From positions 1 through 11,512 of the forward strand of contig SKQM01000203.1 of NCBI GenBank assembly GCA_007119005.1: 11,512 nucleotides of DNA, read 5' to 3'. The stretch's first letter is position 1. Every line of letters starts with the position of its first letter. The stretch is from Thioalkalivibrio sp. (lineage in GTDB: Bacteria > Pseudomonadota > Gammaproteobacteria > Ectothiorhodospirales > Ectothiorhodospiraceae). Positions 4,235 through 11,512 of the stretch are shown here, piece after piece. The notes beneath the pieces were generated by a model, which was not told where the DNA came from, made no database searches, and worked only from the letters and a program-made list of their open reading frames with translations. Position numbers and translations under genes: made by a program.

Positions 4235-4768
4235 ATGACAGAGCAAAGGCATGCCATGCACCGCTCGTCCCGGGTCAGCGCCTACCTTCTGCGGCTCGGA
4301 ATCCTGCTCGCTGCCTGGTGGATCCTCAGTGGCAGCAGCAGTGACTGGTGGTTCGGCCTCCCGCTGGCGATCATCGCCGCGGCGGTAAGCCTGTGGCTGA
4401 CGCCCCCGGGCCACTTTCTGCTGCGCCCGCAACGCATCCCGGGTTTCGCCGCCTTCTTCCTTTGGCAGTCGCTGCTGGCCGGCTGGGATGTGGCCAAACG
4501 CACCCTGAGCCCGGCGTTGCCATTGCATCCCGAGATCCTGCGTATCCCGATGGCCCTGCCGCCTGGCGCGCCAACCTGGTGGCTGATGCTGACCATCAGC
4601 CTGCTGCCGGGAACACTGAGCGTGCGGCTGCACCGGGGCCGCATCCTCGAAGTGCACTGCCTGGACTCACGGCTCGACGTCGCGGGCAGCGTGCGCGAGA
4701 CCGAGGAGCAACTGGCAAGACTGTTCAGGGTGGAAATGCGCGCAACCGAGCACGGTCACCCGTCATGA
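4235..4768 (+). CDS. mnhE: Mrp/Mnh antiporter subunit E
   Basis: This first gene of the operon encodes a 177-residue membrane protein of the MnhE/MrpE/PhaE family, a small subunit needed for assembly and activity of the multi-subunit Na+(K+)/H+ antiporter. Membrane segments are visible at about 17-33, 38-55 and 70-86, then a cytoplasmic domain. The family motif is LTISLLPGTLSV (119-130) followed by GRILEVHCLD (135-144). The ATG at 4235 has GGAG 4 bases upstream; an in-frame ATG at 4256 with AAGG upstream would give 170 residues and is a fair alternative. The stop overlaps the mnhF start as ATGA. It corresponds to MbhA of archaeal Mbh complexes. Confidence 0.93.
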   Translation: MTEQRHAMHRSSRVSAYLLRLGILLAAWWILSGSSSDWWFGLPLAIIAAAVSLWLTPPGHFLLRPQRIPGFAAFFLWQSLLAGWDVAKRTLSPALPLHPEILRIPMALPPGAPTWWLMLTISLLPGTLSVRLHRGRILEVHCLDSRLDVAGSVRETEEQLARLFRVEMRATEHGHPS

Positions 4769-5055
4769 CCTGGCTGCTCGAAACCGTTGCGCTGCTGCTG
4801 CTGGTGACCCTGGCACTGGGGCTGATCCGGATCTGGCGCGGTCCGACCATCGCCGACCGCATGCTCGCCGCCCAGCTGTTCGGCACCACCGGCGTCGGCC
4901 TGCTGCTGGTGCTCGCGGAACTGCAGCAGTTGGCCGCGCTGCGCGATGTCGCGCTGGTGCTGGCATTGCTGGCGGTGATGGCGGTGCTCGCTTTCGTCGC
5001 CCGGGTCTGGCGGCGGGAATCGCAGGACGCGACCGAGGAGGACCCCCGCGAATGA
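4765..5055 (+). CDS. mnhF: Mrp/Mnh antiporter subunit F
   Basis: This 96-residue protein is the MnhF/MrpF/PhaF subunit of the cation/proton antiporter. Three membrane helices are visible at about 2-20, 33-52 and 60-79. The diagnostic motif is RIWRGPTIADRMLAAQ (22-37), matching the GPT..DR pattern of the family. A short charged C-terminal tail (RRESQDATEEDPRE) follows. The start ATG overlaps the mnhE stop by 4 bases and the stop overlaps the mnhG start by 4 bases, so translation is probably coupled. It is equivalent to MbhB. Confidence 0.95.
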   Translation: MTWLLETVALLLLVTLALGLIRIWRGPTIADRMLAAQLFGTTGVGLLLVLAELQQLAALRDVALVLALLAVMAVLAFVARVWRRESQDATEEDPRE

Positions 5056-5369
5056 TTCTGATCGAACTGCTGCAGGCGCTGCTGCTGCTCGCGGGGGTCG
5101 GCTTCTTCCTGGTCGGCACCCTGGGCATCCTGCGCTTTCCGGATGTCTACACCCGCATCCACGCGCTCACCAAGGCCGACAACCTCGGACTCGGCCTGAT
5201 CGTCTTCGGCCTGCTGCTCGGTGCCGATTCCGTGCCGGTGGCCCTGAAACTGCTGCTGGTCTGGGGGCTGGCACTGATCGCCAGCGCGACCGCGGGCTAC
5301 CTGGTGGCAAGGGCCGCGCGGCGCCGGGGCGTACGGCCATGGAAGGCCCGCAACTGGGAGAACGGCTGA
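5052..5369 (+). CDS. mnhG: Mrp/Mnh antiporter subunit G
   Basis: This 105-residue protein is the MnhG/MrpG/PhaG subunit. It has three membrane helices, at about 4-24, 44-60 and 64-86. The signature VGTLGILRFPDVYTRIHAL (21-39), followed by TKADNLG (40-46), is diagnostic for the family. The C-terminus is basic (RAARRRGVRPWKARNWENG) and probably cytoplasmic. It overlaps mnhF by 4 bases and the MbhD-like gene by one base (TGATG). Small E, F and G subunits are essential for assembly in characterised Mrp antiporters. It is equivalent to MbhC. Confidence 0.95.
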   Translation: MILIELLQALLLLAGVGFFLVGTLGILRFPDVYTRIHALTKADNLGLGLIVFGLLLGADSVPVALKLLLVWGLALIASATAGYLVARAARRRGVRPWKARNWENG

Positions 5370-5638
5370 TGCCCTGGCTCGACCTTCTGCTGGGCTTCAC
5401 GATCTGCGTGACCGCGGGGCTCGCCCTGATCGCCCGGGACATGTTTCGCGCGGTGATCATGTTCATCGTCTTTGGTCTGTTGATGTCCATCGCGTGGGTG
5501 CGCCTGCACGCACCGGACATCGCGCTGGCCGAGGCGGCGATCGGCGCCGGCCTCACCGGTGTGTTGCTGCTGGACACCCTGGGCTACCTGCGGCGCCCGT
5601 TCGGAAGCCGCGTCGATAACCCGGACGACCCGACGTGA
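5369..5638 (+). CDS. MbhD-like subunit (detached MrpA C-terminal domain)
   Basis: This 89-residue membrane protein matches the MbhD-like (DUF4040) domain, which in canonical Mrp complexes is a C-terminal part of MrpA and in Mbh hydrogenases is a separate subunit. Helices lie at about 3-21, 28-46 and 52-70. The conserved acidic pair is in HAPDIALAEAAIGAG (47-61), with Asp50 and Glu55; the corresponding region in NuoJ/MrpA contributes to the ion path. The start at 5369 was chosen because it restarts on the mnhG stop (TGATG) with GGAG 8 bases upstream; an ATG at 5339 would overlap mnhG by 31 bases and is less likely. The stop overlaps the next gene as GTGA. Its presence as a free protein shows that no full-length MrpA is encoded here. 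Confidence 0.88.
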   Translation: MPWLDLLLGFTICVTAGLALIARDMFRAVIMFIVFGLLMSIAWVRLHAPDIALAEAAIGAGLTGVLLLDTLGYLRRPFGSRVDNPDDPT

Positions 5639-6336
5639 TCCTGCGCATCGTTCTCGCGGGACTGCTCTGCCTGGGCGTCACCGTCGCTCTGGGCTGGGCC
5701 GTGCTGGAGCGCCCGATGCCCGTAGAGAACCTGCCGGAGCGGGTCGCCTCGGCGATGCCCGAGAGCGGCGTCGAGCACCCGATTACCGCGGTGCTGCTGA
5801 ACTTCCGCAGCTACGACACGCTGCTCGAGATCGCGGTGCTGCTGGTGGCCGTGGTGGTGGCGCTCGCGCTGCGCGAGGCCCAGCCCGACCAGCCGGAACA
5901 GATGGGCCTGGACAACCCGTTGCTGCGGGCAGTGATGGCCTGGCTGCTGCCACTGATCCTCGTCGTCGCCGGCTTCCTGCTCTGGGCGGGTTCCTACCAG
6001 CCCGGCGGGGCATTCCAGGCCGGCTCGGTGCTGGCCGCGGCGGGCGTGCTGCTGCGCCTGGCCGGAGTCACCACGAACTGGCTGGACAACGCCCTGCTGA
6101 TGCGCGCGGGCCTCGCGCTGGGACTGCTGACCTTCCTCGGCATCGGGCTGCTGGTGATGCTGCCCGGCGTCCCCTTCCTGACCTACCCGGCCGCACACGC
6201 GGGCACGCTGATCCTGGTGATCGAACTCACGCTGACCCTCTCCATCGGCCTGACGCTGCTCAGCCTGTTCCGGCTGACCCCGCCCTACGCCGACGATCCG
6301 GACGACGCCCGCCCGCAGGAGGACCGGAACCTGTGA
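5635..6336 (+). CDS. mnhB: MnhB subunit with N-terminal MbhE-like domain
   Basis: This 233-residue protein appears to be a fusion. Residues 1-80 look like the MbhE-like domain, with a first helix at 4-24 and VLLNFRSYDTLLEIAVLLVA at 53-72, the usual ending of MrpA. Residues 95-215 form the MnhB/MrpB domain, with four helices and PGGAFQAGSVLAAAGVLLR (123-141), a variant of the family's PGGGFQGG loop. The tail is acidic. The start is GTG at 5635, overlapping the previous stop as GTGA; the stop overlaps mnhC in the same way. The region matches the MbhE-MbhF step in archaeal order. Related fused B subunits are known in non-canonical Mrp operons, so the join is probably genuine rather than a sequencing artefact. 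Confidence 0.88.
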   Translation: MILRIVLAGLLCLGVTVALGWAVLERPMPVENLPERVASAMPESGVEHPITAVLLNFRSYDTLLEIAVLLVAVVVALALREAQPDQPEQMGLDNPLLRAVMAWLLPLILVVAGFLLWAGSYQPGGAFQAGSVLAAAGVLLRLAGVTTNWLDNALLMRAGLALGLLTFLGIGLLVMLPGVPFLTYPAAHAGTLILVIELTLTLSIGLTLLSLFRLTPPYADDPDDARPQEDRNL

Positions 6337-6629
6337 GCGGATCACTGGTATTCGCCTGGTCCGGCGTGCTGCTGTTCGGCCTGGGGCTGTTCGGTTTCAT
6401 CGCCCACCGGCACCTGCTGCGCCGCCTGCTGGCGTTCAACATCATGGGCAGCGGGTCATTCCTCGTGTTGGTCGGGCTGGCCCAGGAAGGGCGCGGGGTG
6501 GACCCGGTACCGCATGCACTGGTGATCACCGGCATCGTCGTCGCGGTGGCCTCCACCGCGCTTGCGCTGGTGGTGTTCCGACGCTGGTACCGCGCAAGCG
6601 GGCGCACCGATCTGCCGGAGGACACGTGA
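6333..6629 (+). CDS. mnhC: Mrp/Mnh antiporter subunit C (NuoK-like)
   Basis: This 98-residue protein belongs to the MnhC/MrpC family, homologous to NuoK of complex I. It has three helices, at about 6-24, 33-50 and 62-83. The family signature DPVPHALVITGIVVAVASTA (57-76) is clear; the usual form is DP.PQALVLT, so a histidine replaces the common glutamine. The start is GTG at 6333, overlapping the mnhB stop as GTGA. AGGAGG lies about 10 bases upstream inside mnhB. The stop overlaps mnhD as GTGA. It packs against MrpD and MrpA in known complexes and is equivalent to MbhG. Confidence 0.93.
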   Translation: MSGSLVFAWSGVLLFGLGLFGFIAHRHLLRRLLAFNIMGSGSFLVLVGLAQEGRGVDPVPHALVITGIVVAVASTALALVVFRRWYRASGRTDLPEDT

Positions 6630-8086
6630 TCGGCCTGTGGTCCGTCCCGCTGCTGTTCGCGCTGCCACTGGCACTGGGAATCCTCAGCCTGCTCGTGGTG
6701 CCGGCCTGGCGGCCACGCCTGATCTTCGTCGGACTGCCGCTGCTGGCGGCGGCCAGCCTGGATGTGCTCGCTGGCCTGGCGACGGCGGGCCCTCAGGTGT
6801 ACAGGCTGGGGGACTGGATCGCGCCACTGGGCATCAACCTGGTGGTCGACGGGCTCGCCGTGGGCATGATCCTGATGACCACGCTGGTCGCCACTCTCTG
6901 CGCGCTGTACGCGCGGGTCTACCTGCGCGACCACCCTCCCGCGAGCAGCTTCTTCTGGCCGCTGCTGTGGTTCCTCTGGGCCGGGATGAATGGCATCTGG
7001 CTCGCTGAAGACATCTTCAACCTCTATGTCGGCCTCGAAGTGATGGGGCTGGCCGCGGTGGGCATGGTCGCGTTGCGGGCGACACCCCAGGCCCTGGCCG
7101 CCGCGATGCGCTACCTGCTCGCGGCCCTGCTCGGCTCGCTGGCCTACCTGCTCGGCGTGGCGCTGCTCTACGCCGCCTACGGCACGCTGTCGATGGCGGG
7201 CCTGCACGAGGCCGCCACGAACAACGCGACCACCCAGGTGGCGCTCGCGCTGATCATCCTCGGCCTGCTGCTGAAGACGGCTCTGTTCCCCCTGCACGCG
7301 TGGCTGCCACCGGCCCACGGCGGCGCGCTGACGCCGGTGAGCGCGCTGCTCTCGGCGCTGGTGATCAAGGCCTCGTTCTACATCCTGCTGCGGCTTTGGC
7401 TGGTACTGGGGCCCGAAGTCACGCCGGAGCTCACTGCCCAACTGCTGGGCGTGCTCGGCGCGGGTGCCGTGTTCTACGGCGGCTGGATGGCCTGGCGTCA
7501 GCATCACCTCAAGCAGCTGGTCGCCTATTCCACGGTGGCCCAGATCGGCTACCTGTTCCTGTTCTTCCCGCTGGTCACCAACACCAGCCCCGAGGCCGCA
7601 CGCCTGGCCTGGGACGGCACGCTGATGATGCTGGTCGCGCATGCGCTGGCAAAGGCCGCGCTGTTCCTCAGCGCCGGCAACCTGATTCTCGCCGTCGGCA
7701 GCCCGCAGATCAGCCACCTGGTGGGAATCAGCCGGTTCCGGCCGATGTCCCTGTTCAGCTTCGGGCTCGCCGGGGTCAGCCTGATGGGCCTGCCGCCGAG
7801 CGGCGGCTTCACGGCCAAGTGGCTGCTGCTGCACAGCGCGATCCTCAGCGGCCAGTGGTGGTGGCTGATCGTGCTGTTCCTCGGCGGCCTGCTCAGCGCA
7901 GCCTACATTTTCAAAGTCTTCCGCATGTCGTTCCGTGAGGGCCCGCAGATCGACCGTTCGGTCACGCCGCCACTGACGCTGGACGTGGTCGCGCTGGTGC
8001 TGGCAGCCAGCGCGATCCTCATCGGCCTGTTCGCCCACCTGCCGCTGCACTGGCTGCGCATGGGCAGCGTACTGGGGATGGGCTGA
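6626..8086 (+). CDS. mnhD: Mrp/Mnh antiporter subunit D (antiporter-like 1)
   Basis: This 486-residue protein with about 14 membrane helices is a member of the NuoL/M/N-MrpA/D superfamily (proton-conducting membrane transporter domain). It keeps the expected charged residues: Glu138 in NLYVGLEVMGL (TM5), Lys217 and His224 in LLKTALFPLHAWLP (TM7), His231 in PPAHGG, Lys248 in VIKASFY (TM8), Lys296 in HHLKQLVAYSTVAQIGY, and Lys343 in HALAKAALFLSAG. The length is normal for MrpD. The start is GTG at 6626, overlapping mnhC as GTGA; the stop is followed by a TGATG restart. Its place directly after mnhC matches canonical CD order and MbhG-MbhH, so this is the subunit most likely to be the orthologue of MrpD. 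Confidence 0.93.
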   Translation: MIGLWSVPLLFALPLALGILSLLVVPAWRPRLIFVGLPLLAAASLDVLAGLATAGPQVYRLGDWIAPLGINLVVDGLAVGMILMTTLVATLCALYARVYLRDHPPASSFFWPLLWFLWAGMNGIWLAEDIFNLYVGLEVMGLAAVGMVALRATPQALAAAMRYLLAALLGSLAYLLGVALLYAAYGTLSMAGLHEAATNNATTQVALALIILGLLLKTALFPLHAWLPPAHGGALTPVSALLSALVIKASFYILLRLWLVLGPEVTPELTAQLLGVLGAGAVFYGGWMAWRQHHLKQLVAYSTVAQIGYLFLFFPLVTNTSPEAARLAWDGTLMMLVAHALAKAALFLSAGNLILAVGSPQISHLVGISRFRPMSLFSFGLAGVSLMGLPPSGGFTAKWLLLHSAILSGQWWWLIVLFLGGLLSAAYIFKVFRMSFREGPQIDRSVTPPLTLDVVALVLAASAILIGLFAHLPLHWLRMGSVLGMG

Positions 8087-9582
8087 TGGACTGGAACGGT
8101 CTGATCCTGTTCGGCGTGCTCGCGACCTCCCTGGTTGCGTCCGGCGTGATCTTCCTGCTCGCGGAATCGCGGGTGATGCTGCGCAGCGTGTTCAACCTGG
8201 CCGCAGCGGTGCTGAAGCTGGTGCTGGTGGGGTGGATCATCCTCGGCGTCTACAGAAACGTCGACTACGAGCTGCGCTTCACGATCATCGAGGGCGTGGA
8301 CTTCATTCTTCGCGCGGATGCGCTGGGCATCATGTTCGTCGGCCTGTCCTCGCTGCTGTGGCTGTTCACCACCATCTACGCGATCGGCTACCTCGAAAAG
8401 GCCCCGAACCGCAGCCGCTTCTTCGGCTTCTTCAGCCTCTGCGTCGCCAGTACCGTCGGGATCGCGCTGGCCGGCAACCTGTTCACCTTCCTGCTGTTCT
8501 ACGAACTGCTGACCCTGTCCACCTACCCGCTGGTGGTGCATCGCGGTACGCGCGAGTCGCTGCGCGCCGGGCAGGTATACCTGTACTACACGCTGGGTGG
8601 CGGCGCGCTGCTGCTGTTCGGCGTGGTGGCGCTGCACGTGTTGGTCGGCGACACCGAGTTCGTCCCCGGCGGCAGCCTGTCGGGACTGGACCCGTCGCTG
8701 TACCCGCTGCTGATCGGGATCTTCCTGATGATGGTGATCGGGCTCGGCGTGAAGGCCGCGCTGTTCCCGCTGCACGCCTGGCTGCCGATGGCGATGGTCG
8801 CGCCGGCGCCGGTCAGCGCGCTGCTGCACGCGGTGGCCGTGGTTAAGGCCGGCGCCTTTGGCATCGCCCGACTCGTTTACGACGTGTATGGAGTCGAGTT
8901 CGCCCAGTCACTGGGCCTGCTCGCCCCGCTCGCGGTGGCTGCGTCGATCACCATCATCTACGGCTCGCTGCGCGCACTGGCCCAGGACGACCTGAAAAAA
9001 CGGCTGGCGTTCTCCACCGTGAGCCAGGTCTCGTACATCGTGCTCGGCATCAGCCTGTTTGGGCCGGTCGGGTCCATCGGCGGCCTGATGCACCTGCTGC
9101 ACCAGGGCCTGATGAAAATCACGCTGTTCTTCTGCGCGGGGAACTACGCCGAGACGCTGGGCGTACACAAGATCAGCGAACTGGACGGTGCGGGCGCGCG
9201 CATGCCTGCGACCAGCGTGGCCTTCACGCTGGGTGCGTTCGGCATGATCGGCATCCCGCCGATGGCCGGGTTCATCAGCAAGTGGTACCTGGGGATCGGC
9301 GCGCTCGAGGCACAGATGAACTGGGTGCTCGGGGTATTGATCCTCAGCAGCCTGCTCAACGCGGCGTATTTCCTGCCAATCCTGTACCGAATCTGGTTCC
9401 GCAAGCGTGATCGCCTGTGGTGCGAGGGCAAGGTGCTCGGGCGTTTCGAGACCCAGGGCTCGTTGCTGATCCCGACTCTGGCGACCGCCGCTTTCGCACT
9501 GGCGGCCGGGGTGCTGGCCGGCATGCCGTTCAGCCCGCTGTACTGGGCAGACCTGATCGTCAGCCGCGAGTACCTGCAGTGA
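8086..9582 (+). CDS. antiporter-like subunit 2 (NuoL/M-MrpA/D superfamily)
   Basis: This 498-residue polytopic membrane protein is the second paralogue in the operon. Functional residues are retained: Glu140 in LLFYELLTLSTYPLV, Lys223 and His230 in GVKAALFPLHAWLP, His248, Lys254 in VVKAGAFGIAR, Lys344 in GLMKITLFFCAG, and Lys399 in GFISKWYL. The TM7-TM8 stretch PMAMVAPAPVSALLHAVAVV (234-253), including His248, is closer to NuoL/MrpA-type sequences (P.AM.APTPVSALLHA..MVKAG) than to typical MrpD. It may therefore stand in for the missing MrpA N-terminal domain; this is inference. It lacks the long C-terminal lateral helix of NuoL and ends with a short tail. The ATG at 8086 restarts on the mnhD stop (TGATG). 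The superfamily is certain; the exact subgroup is not. Confidence 0.88.
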   Translation: MDWNGLILFGVLATSLVASGVIFLLAESRVMLRSVFNLAAAVLKLVLVGWIILGVYRNVDYELRFTIIEGVDFILRADALGIMFVGLSSLLWLFTTIYAIGYLEKAPNRSRFFGFFSLCVASTVGIALAGNLFTFLLFYELLTLSTYPLVVHRGTRESLRAGQVYLYYTLGGGALLLFGVVALHVLVGDTEFVPGGSLSGLDPSLYPLLIGIFLMMVIGLGVKAALFPLHAWLPMAMVAPAPVSALLHAVAVVKAGAFGIARLVYDVYGVEFAQSLGLLAPLAVAASITIIYGSLRALAQDDLKKRLAFSTVSQVSYIVLGISLFGPVGSIGGLMHLLHQGLMKITLFFCAGNYAETLGVHKISELDGAGARMPATSVAFTLGAFGMIGIPPMAGFISKWYLGIGALEAQMNWVLGVLILSSLLNAAYFLPILYRIWFRKRDRLWCEGKVLGRFETQGSLLIPTLATAAFALAAGVLAGMPFSPLYWADLIVSREYLQ

Positions 9583-11318
9583 GCTCGGTGGTCGGCACGG
9601 TCACGCTGTTGCTCGCACCCGGCTTGCCGTTTGCGCTGGGCCTGCTCTGGAGTTTCCCGCGGCTGCGTCCGCATATCGGCCCGATCGCACCCTGGGCGGC
9701 GATCCCGGCGCTGCTGCTGGCCCTGTTCGGCAAACCCGGCGAAACCGTAGAACTCAGCTGGCTGCTGTTCGGCGCCGAGATCGGGATGACACCAACCACG
9801 CAGGTGTTCCTGTTCTTCACCGCGCTGATCTGGTTCGCGGCCGGCATCCACGGCCGCGGGCACCTGAGCGAGGACGACCACTGCGAGCGGTTCTGCGTGT
9901 TCTGGCTGTTCACGCTCGCGGGCAACATCGGCCTGATCCTCGCGCTGGATGTCGCGCTGTTCTACACCAGCTTCGCGCTGATGACCTTCGCGGCTTACGG
10001 GCTGATCGTGCACAGCAGCAGCCCCGCCGCGCTGCGCGCAGGCCGCGTGTACCTGGTGCTGGCGGTGCTCGGCGAGGCGCTTATCCTGATCGGGCTCATT
10101 CTCGCCGCACGCGGCACCGAAGCGCCCCTGCTGCCCCTGCTCGCGGACCTCCCCGAGGCGATCGCCGCGGCACCCGAGCGCGACCTGATCATCGCCAGCC
10201 TTTGGCTGGGCTTCGGCGTGAAGGCCGGACTGCCGCTGCTGCACTTCAGCCTGCCGCTCGCCTATGCCGCCGCGCCGGTGCCGGTGGCCGCGGCGCTCGC
10301 AGGCGCCATGATCAAGGCCGGGCTGCTCGGCTGGCTGGTGACCCTGCCGCTGGGTCAGGCCGGGCTGGCCGACTGGGGGACGATCGTGATTGCCACCGGG
10401 CTGATCGCGGCCTTCGGCGGCGCGCTGATCGGCGTGCACCAGAACCGGCCGCGCATCGTGCTCGCCTACTCCAGCATCAGCCAGATGGGGATGGCGACGG
10501 TCGCCATTGGAGCGTGGTTGTCGGCCCCGGCACTCGGGCCTCTGCTCGCGATCGCGATCACCGTCTTCGCGCTGCACCACGCGCTGGCGAAAGCCGCGCT
10601 CTTCCTGGGCACCGAGGTCGTGCGACACCGTACCCGGCGGCCCGTCTTGTGGCTCTGGATCGGGCTCGGGATACCCGCACTGGGGCTGGCTGGCTTAATG
10701 CCCAGCGGCCTCCTGACGAAAACCACACTGAAGGCTGCGCTGACCGCAGGCGATGCATTGCCGGAGACATGGGCAAACCTCCCGCTGCTGCTCGGTATCG
10801 CAGCGATCGGCACCACCGCGCTGATGGCCCGCCATCTCTGGCTGCTGCGCCTGGAGGCCGGGCGCGATGATGCCCGCCCGGCGGCCTGGCACGGATGGGC
10901 GCTGATCACCGCGGCGACGGTGCTCGGAGTATTCCTGCTGCCCATCTGGGGCATTTCGCCTTCCTGGTGGGCGGCGCTCGGCGGCCTGTTCGATGCGTTC
11001 TGGCCGGTGGCAATCGGGCTGGTACTGGCGGTGATCGCCTGGCGCTGGCTGCGGCCATGGCCGATTCCGCCTGCCGACGTGCTCGTGCTGCTGACGCCGC
11101 TTCCGGGTCTGGCCGTGCGCGCGGGTCAGGCGCTGGGGGTCACCGGCCCTGCGATCCAGCGCGTGTTCCGCCACCTGCAGGCACTGGCGCTGGACCGTTA
11201 CCGCCGTGCCGACCACCGCATCGGCCGCGCCAGCGTGCACCTCTGGCGCCGCGACGCCTCACTGCTGTTCGCGCTGATCCTGGCGCTGCTGGCGGTCTAT
11301 GGCCTGAGCATCGTCTGA
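9579..11318 (+). CDS. antiporter-like subunit 3, lacking TM5 Glu, C-terminally extended
   Basis: This last operon gene encodes 579 residues of the same superfamily, but divergent. Aligned on the shared LRAG(Q/R)VYL motif and the preceding His, the TM5 glutamate of subunit 2 (Glu140) becomes Ala133 (FYTSFALMTFAAYG), with no acidic neighbour. Lysines remain: Lys215 (GFGVKAGLPLLH), Lys246 (AMIKAGLLGW), Lys338 (HHALAKAALFLG) and Lys381 (SGLLTKTTL). His222 sits in LLHFSLP in place of the PLHAWLP histidine. After the 14-helix core, residues 472-579 add a helix (475-491), a long basic amphipathic stretch (about 515-560, with RHLQALALDRYRRADHRIGR) and a final membrane helix (561-578). This resembles the lateral helix plus anchor of NuoL. 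The start is GTG at 9579, overlapping subunit 2 as GTGA; open codons upstream back to 9417 lie inside that gene. The operon ends here, 10 bases before the second REP block. Confidence 0.85.
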   Translation: MSSVVGTVTLLLAPGLPFALGLLWSFPRLRPHIGPIAPWAAIPALLLALFGKPGETVELSWLLFGAEIGMTPTTQVFLFFTALIWFAAGIHGRGHLSEDDHCERFCVFWLFTLAGNIGLILALDVALFYTSFALMTFAAYGLIVHSSSPAALRAGRVYLVLAVLGEALILIGLILAARGTEAPLLPLLADLPEAIAAAPERDLIIASLWLGFGVKAGLPLLHFSLPLAYAAAPVPVAAALAGAMIKAGLLGWLVTLPLGQAGLADWGTIVIATGLIAAFGGALIGVHQNRPRIVLAYSSISQMGMATVAIGAWLSAPALGPLLAIAITVFALHHALAKAALFLGTEVVRHRTRRPVLWLWIGLGIPALGLAGLMPSGLLTKTTLKAALTAGDALPETWANLPLLLGIAAIGTTALMARHLWLLRLEAGRDDARPAAWHGWALITAATVLGVFLLPIWGISPSWWAALGGLFDAFWPVAIGLVLAVIAWRWLRPWPIPPADVLVLLTPLPGLAVRAGQALGVTGPAIQRVFRHLQALALDRYRRADHRIGRASVHLWRRDASLLFALILALLAVYGLSIV

Positions 11319-11328
11319 AACCACCAAG

Positions 11329-11512
11329 TCGCCGAGGGGGCTCGCCTCCCACAAGGGCCGGGGGGCATACCGGGCTGTGGGAGGCCAGCCCCCTGGGCGA
11401 CATTCCCCAGCGCCAGGTCGCCGAGAGGGCTCGCCGCCCACAAGGGCCGGGGGCATACCGGGCTGTGGGAGGCCAGCCCCCTGGGCGACATTCCCCAGCG
11501 CCAGATCGCCGA
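11329..11512. repeat. second REP block, inverted, runs off the window
   Basis: Units begin at 11329 (89 bp), 11418 (88 bp) and 11506 (cut by the window end). The arms at 11329-11353 and 11376-11400 are a near-perfect 25-base inverted repeat with two mismatches, around a 22-base spacer; the second pair is at 11418-11442 and 11464-11488. Here the CGAG/CTCG element comes first and the CCAG/CTGG element second, so the block is the reverse complement in order of the array at 2358-2729. The elements are of the same family, while the spacer and the linker between units differ. The length change between units is one G in a G-run. It lies directly downstream of the antiporter operon and may attenuate transcription. 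Confidence 0.88.

Follow-up and report, generated by a model that had tools for sequence, protein, structure and literature searches.

Among described Mrp antiporters, the canonical group 1 and 2 systems carry MrpA, a single chain that joins NuoL-like, MbhD, and MbhE parts. Group 3 is defined by the absence of mrpA, with mrpD-type genes only, sometimes several of them (PMC8415708), and is characterized by an irregular gene order, such as the mrpFGBCDDAE given for Microbacterium TS-1 (PMC5703873). The published description of the group 3 Mrp of Candidatus Nitrospira alkalitolerans places two NuoM/NuoL-like genes after mrpD, which its authors read as extra mrpA/D-like genes (PMC7784846), and the account of the stand-alone Mrp of Pyrococcus furiosus gives the order mrpEFGBB'CD, with neither MrpA nor a redox module (PMC8415708). 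Two MrpD-like subunits are also reported in green complex I (PMC9040806). Here we analyze a nine-gene Mrp operon of Thioalkalivibrio sp. that encodes three large antiporter-like subunits (D1, D2, and D3) and lies on the forward strand at positions 4235-11318 of the window, i.e., the whole stretch of 11512 bases that was studied. The window is one complete contig (C86) of a metagenome-assembled genome (MAG; 244 contigs, 1.56 Mb, 58.55% completeness). The operon probably specifies a stand-alone group 3 Mrp (CPA3) Na+/H+ antiporter with a complex I-like arm of three large subunits, in which D1 and D2 are complete and D3 is a rewired cap. The host would be a Thioalkalivibrio-like haloalkaliphile of the soda-lake type, a habitat suggested by the names of its relatives.

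The Pfam domains bear out the gene content and order proposed by the first-pass annotation, including the likeness to group 3 and Mbh arrangements. The gene for MrpE (4235-4768, 177 aa; PF01899 MNHE, 85.2 bits) runs through an ATGA overlap into that for MrpF (4765-5055, 96 aa; PF04066 MrpF_PhaF, 37.2 bits), which has a GPT..DR motif in common with a canonical-type MrpF, and is followed by the gene for MrpG (5052-5369, 105 aa; PF03334 PhaG_MnhG, 88.5 bits). Next come a free MbhD-type subunit (5369-5638, 89 aa; PF13244, 72.1 bits) with the motif LAEAAIGAG and Glu55, an MbhE-MnhB fusion (5635-6336, 233 aa; PF20501, 31.4 bits, and PF04039, 58.2 bits), and an MrpC/NuoK-like protein (6333-6629, 98 aa; PF00420 Oxidored_q2, 66.7 bits) with Asn36. 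All three large subunits contain the Proton_antipo_M domain (PF00361): D1, of the MrpD type (6626-8086, 486 aa; 177 bits; Glu138, Lys217, Lys248, and Lys398), D2 (8086-9582, 498 aa; 187.7 bits; Glu140, Lys223, Lys254, and Lys399), and D3 (9579-11318, 579 aa; 89.5 bits), which has a C-terminal extension with helices. None of the nine frames contains an internal stop, and neighboring genes overlap by 1 or 4 bases at all eight junctions, which fits a single translationally coupled operon. Divergence from relatives falls mostly at third codon positions (27, 18, and 146 at positions 1, 2, and 3 for D2 versus L014); the closest D3 relatives among the matches listed come from Thioalkalivibrio MAGs, with best segments at 95% (L022) and 81% (L014 and L015).

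Comparison with the described systems places this locus in group 3: the cluster has no mrpA, D3 falls outside the MrpA clade, and the E, F, G, B, C, and D subunits, which are likewise common to the canonical systems, occur in an irregular order. It differs from group 1/2 in that the NuoL-like, MbhD, and MbhE parts reside in separate proteins and no MrpA chain exists. As in the order published for TS-1, three large-subunit genes (D, D, and A by letter) follow C, but the window cluster has E first and MbhD free (PMC5703873). By gene letters alone, the TS-1 order F-G-B-C-D-D-A-E would match that of two relatives recovered here (L027 and L057; F-G-DEB-C-D1-D2-D3-E). The Nitrospira cluster, likened here by its published description, differs in having nhaB, bicA, and motB in its region (PMC7784846). 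The order E-F-G-B-B'-C-D of P. furiosus is close to that of the window, but its description includes one antiporter-like subunit versus three, and the fusion is MbhD-MbhE instead of MbhE-MnhB (PMC8415708). Haloarchaeal Mrp operons (L012 and L013) read E-F-G-MbhDE-MnhB-C-D1-D2-D3; the D2 of L012 belongs to the same clade as that of the window, but its D3 belongs to another family. Rhizobial green complex I (L011) likewise has a D2-type subunit of this clade followed by a NuoL-like partner; however, it is part of an NADH dehydrogenase operon, and the partner groups with the haloarchaeal D3. The earlier contention that three antiporter-like subunits would set the complex apart from the two of known Mrp thus does not hold, since three-gene clusters are already published for Nitrospira and, by letters, Microbacterium, and also occur in haloarchaea. 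As first annotated, no redox subunit accompanies the operon: Pfam scans of 12 window genes revealed no MrpA, no NADH dehydrogenase subunit, and no hydrogenase or sulfane reductase subunit of the kind linked to Mbh or Mbs. A DAB-type inorganic carbon pump was also considered and rejected, as no DabA (PF10070) match was found in the host's own incomplete genome or, with one DabA query, in the 80 loci described below.

D3 differs from D1 and D2 in its charged residues. These were compared in an alignment of 259 rows, for which 78 of 83 collected D1, 79 of 87 D2, and 81 of 93 D3 proteins were used (of the other 12 D3, eight were dropped for length and four set apart); the D1 set includes three MrpD of canonical-type clusters (L028, L044, and L120), and the D3 set includes three solo genes (L019-L021). 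A Glu on transmembrane helix 5 (TM5) is present in all 78 D1 and in 78 of the 79 D2, the remaining one having Asp, but in none of the 81 D3, where the site is Ala (68), Ser (4), Gly (3), Thr (3), or Val (3). TM6 instead carries a Glu in every D3, including the four set apart (three solo and one from the two-subunit cluster L119), and in no D1 or D2. The D3 of the window thus has Ala133 on TM5, Glu166 on TM6, Lys215 on TM7, Lys246 on TM8, and Lys381 on TM12, and carries both features by which we define the D3 family, the missing TM5 Glu and the TM6 Glu. Together with the TM6 Glu, the TM7, TM8, and TM12 Lys are nearly invariant (81/81 for TM7 and TM12, with a second Lys four residues beyond the latter in 79/81). 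The same holds for database homologues: among the 120 listed of 1682 found, which partly overlap with the loci, all have the TM6 Glu and none the TM5 Glu. The TM6 Glu aligns with Asp178 of Escherichia coli NuoL, for which a 3.3 A contact with K229 is described, within a double ion pair that includes E144 and R175 (PMC13324432). D3 lacks a charge at the E144 and R175 positions (the latter is V, I, M, or L in 120/120 homologues); hence, it has kept the TM6-TM7 half of this pair and lost the part that faces the neighboring subunit. The haloarchaeal and the green complex I D3 (one of each) show the opposite change, with the TM5 Glu retained and an Asn in place of the TM7 Lys. In DabB, too, the TM5 Glu is missing (His in six of six, five of them from the same genus) and an acid is present on TM6; DabB is not known to have such a neighboring antiporter-like subunit. 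Within the coverage of the open-library literature, we found no description of the TM5-to-TM6 change seen in D3 and no further account of this cluster.

Phylogenetic analysis using FastTree (103 sequences, 439 columns; support values are those of FastTree) unites D1 with canonical MrpD and haloarchaeal D1 (0.927) and D2 with the D2 of haloarchaea and rhizobial green complex I (1.0), whereas bacterial D3 forms a clade of its own (1.0), separate from the joint clade of haloarchaeal and green complex I D3 (1.0); MrpA, NuoL, and DabB cluster together (0.725). D1 alone is not monophyletic, because L028 has two clusters and one D1 was taken per locus, so that its D1 falls within the canonical MrpD clade. 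An unfinished IQ-TREE tree, which carries no support values, contains the same five groups. In structure comparisons, the AlphaFold2 model of D3 (mean pLDDT, 88.7; block means of 41-76 from residue 491 on) resembles NuoL and the N-terminal part of MrpA (MrpA-N). The proposal that a NuoL-like part is missing from the operon therefore gives way to a NuoL-shaped D3, in a model that is uncertain from about residue 500. Natural D2-D3 fusions, e.g., in the haloarchaeal L013, suggest that D3 belongs to the Mrp complex.

D3 is also seen in other settings. Solo D3 genes (572 aa) are found in Thioalkalivibrio-like genomes, namely, in L123 (G000:C70, 100-1815), L117 (8896-10611), L121 (8261-9976), L019, L020, and L021; no Mrp gene was found adjoining them, the TM6 Glu is kept, and those of L123 and L117 show 53% identity to the D3 of the window. 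Two loci, L119 and L088, present a two-subunit version in which D1 is directly followed by D3, and L061, L078, and L040 have two D3-like genes in tandem after D2.

A profile search of genome contigs with the bacterial D3 alignment recovered at least 572 relatives, and the 80 best were selected; in 54 of these, the locus is sufficiently long (7300 bases or more lie between its left end and the start of the D3 match). The genes D1-D2-D3 are adjacent in 54/54, and the full order E-F-G-(MbhD/MbhE/MnhB)-C-D1-D2-D3 is retained in 42, as the first-pass annotation had suspected in allowing for similar clusters in other bacteria. No redox subunit was detected within the fetched flanks of any of the 54 (Nuo and Hyf references, >60 bits), and MrpA exceeds 200 bits in one (L044). 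Among the 12 that depart from the full order, E follows D3 in L027 and L057 and was not found in L089, and L075 was counted as lacking F, though another annotation did label an F there; the rest, six Halomonadaceae (L054, L056, L062, L070, L073, and L090), L077, and L093, lack several small subunits. The Halomonadaceae versions retain D1-D2-D3, with no E, F, or G detected; the protein that comes before carries an MbhD domain in L062 and L070, in L070 together with a NuoK-like match slightly under the Pfam cut-off. Across all 80 loci, many of them short, D1-D2-D3 occurs in 72, D2-D3 in 75, and D1-D3 without D2 in one (L088).

Going by title, the matches listed cover Gamma-, Beta-, and Alphaproteobacteria, Desulfobulbaceae, Dehalococcoidia, Anaerolineales, Phycisphaeraceae, Verrucomicrobia, Actinobacteria, an anammox bacterium, Myxococcus, and Cyclobacteriaceae. 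In evenly drawn sets of genomes, both including the host's own, a D3 match (E <= 1e-60) is present in 21/369 for the class and 14/398 for the phylum. Plasmids of Rhizobium rosettiformans, Aminobacter, and a Rhodobacteraceae strain keep this order, with MbhD, MbhE, and MnhB combined in a single protein, and in Rubrobacter D3 precedes D1 and D2. In the anammox locus (L028), matches resembling MrpB, C, D, E, and F come just before the three-subunit cluster, like a second Mrp cluster. The gene order itself is thus not new: it is that of a conserved and catalogued but uncharacterized kind of Mrp operon, which makes the arrangement as such of modest interest.

The small subunits show their own affinities. 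The free MbhD best matches a stand-alone DUF4040 family of NCBIfam (65.5 bits, versus 26.7 for the best MrpA model), and its motif is nearer to that of a haloarchaeal protein than to MrpA. The notion that the operon carries a dismantled MrpA thus finds no support, and a split of MrpA as the origin was rejected. The MbhE part keeps the FRxxDTxxE motif, whose acidic residues, Asp61 and Glu65, line up with one Asp and one Glu in the C-terminal part of MrpA. Asn36 of MrpC occupies the position of a NuoK Glu and is Asn in all 16 C proteins shown from such clusters (15 bacterial, one haloarchaeal); the canonical-type MrpC of L120 has no Asn there.

If these proteins assemble as predicted, E, F, G, MnhB, MbhD/MbhE, and C would form the cation module, with D1 beside it, followed by D2 and then by D3 as a cap in the place of NuoL or MrpA-N. 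The C-terminal helices of D3 would fold back alongside the arm. The membrane potential would push protons in through D1 and D2, with their full TM5-Glu/TM7-Lys pairs, and thereby drive Na+ out. Adjacent subunits have been described as coupled through the TM5 Glu and TM7 Lys in one and the TM12 Lys in the next (PMC7419157). With the acidic partner of its TM7 Lys shifted from TM5 to TM6, D3 would lack the site at which a TM5 Glu normally couples to the TM12 Lys of D2. Most probably, then, it serves as a cap or as a proton path with loose coupling instead of adding a third pump of the ordinary kind; this casts doubt on the three channels proposed in the first-pass annotation.

Several observations weigh against this interpretation. 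Antiport is predicted here from genes, and the Halomonadaceae clusters without detected E, F, and G make the ion uncertain. D3 forms its own clade, distinct from MrpA/NuoL, and MrpD/NdhD chains score just 2-3 Z units lower in the structure comparison (6z16_D, 37.6; 6tjv_D, 38.2), so that its placement rests on gene order, fusions, and a weakly separating fold; the IQ-TREE analysis is incomplete as well. The C-terminal helices are of low confidence in the model, and five D3 of 493-504 aa (four from Marinobacter and one from Aliidiomarina) lack much of the extension. Solo D3 genes are located away from Mrp genes. Finally, loss of the TM5 Glu need not abolish function: MrpA E113Q is reported to have retained Na+ export in one assay, with an earlier report quoted there disagreeing (PMC4938563), and changes of NuoN E133 are described as mild in effect (PMC3046159).

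The foremost rival, which we regard as unlikely, takes D3 as a full third proton path in which Glu166 replaces the TM5 Glu, moving more H+ per Na+ than canonical Mrp, which would aid Na+ export at very alkaline pH. The near invariance of the TM6 Glu and of the three Lys would suit such a path, as would the presence of the NuoL acid at the same position in its double ion pair (PMC13324432); the uncharged E144 and R175 sites of D3 speak against it. It is rather improbable that the system moves another ion (K+ or Ca2+) or acts jointly with a neighboring pump. A P-type ATPase does lie within 5 kb of the cluster in 11/80 loci plus L119, and the three scanned have a calcium PMR1-type protein as their best NCBIfam match, under the curated cut-off, but no ATPase is present among the window genes checked, and the residues of the MbhE part are conserved. 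The loci with a nearby type II P-type ATPase are L030, L034, L035, L042, L048, L068, L072, L079, L085, L086, L093, and L119; in five of these 12 it is on the same strand within 200 bases of the cluster. Docking on an unlinked Mbh- or complex I-like module, as a redox-driven pump, is very improbable and was rejected as the principal explanation: the order is like that of the Mbh membrane arm, rhizobial green complex I has D2-type subunits, and some same-genus genomes have NiFe hydrogenases (in the MAG itself one weak match, 34.5 bits on C159), but none of the 54 loci yielded a redox subunit in its fetched flanks with the Nuo and Hyf references, and the strong hydrogenase matches of the single-contig same-genus genomes G010 and G012 are >1 Mb from the cluster.

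The stand-alone group 3 antiporter would not be the sole Mrp system of the genus. A D3 match of >250 bits is present in 27 of 29 same-genus genomes (all except G003 and G006), an MrpA match (TIGR00940) of >480 bits, in all cases under the curated cut-off, in 24, and both in 23. The one such MrpA context opened (L120 in G012) encodes a 783-aa MrpA, after which come matches to B, C, D, F, and G; the query used did not reveal E. A full mrpA elsewhere, which would have told against the first-pass interpretation, is thus half borne out by the MrpA-like matches in the genus, but the L120 copy belongs to a separate canonical-type operon, making the three-subunit operon an additional system in that genome. 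The host's MAG has no comparable MrpA match, which is uninformative given its incompleteness.

A repeat block of two ~88-bp units (11324-11512, no strand), real as first annotated, closes the operon and the contig. A 93-bp tandem array at ~2358-2729 is related to it in the opposite orientation, and the two bracket the Mrp operon and, on the other strand, a gene for a flavin amine oxidoreductase, which we take to be protoporphyrinogen oxidase. Also upstream, Pfam identifies a formamidopyrimidine-DNA glycosylase and a chorismatase-like, FkbO/Hyg5-like protein (591-1544). It is purely a guess that the latter is linked to natronochrome, a membrane pigment of relatives whose biosynthesis genes are described as unidentified (PMC3368412).

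If the predicted assembly is correct, the bacterial three-subunit Mrp has an arm of complex I length. Homologues of D3 are named hydrogenase-4 component B or complex I subunit 5 in several sources, yet the 54 loci checked revealed neither type of gene next to them. We tentatively propose that D3 is a distinct class of antiporter-like protein, with the acid for its TM7 Lys on TM6, which may stand electrically apart from its neighbors, so that the last unit of the arm would follow its own rhythm or act as a regulated cap, with the solo D3 as self-standing versions. The part worth following is the conserved rewiring of D3, together with the D2-D3 fusions and the solo and two-subunit versions. How energy passes between the charge pairs of neighboring antiporter-like subunits is a question for complex I, Mbh, and Mrp alike. 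To this end D3 constitutes a natural experiment, as the TM5 Glu of the putative coupling point is gone in every D3 examined and an acid is present at the NuoL Asp178 site; comparing the three-subunit, two-subunit, fused, and solo versions could separate the charges needed for coupling from those of a single path.

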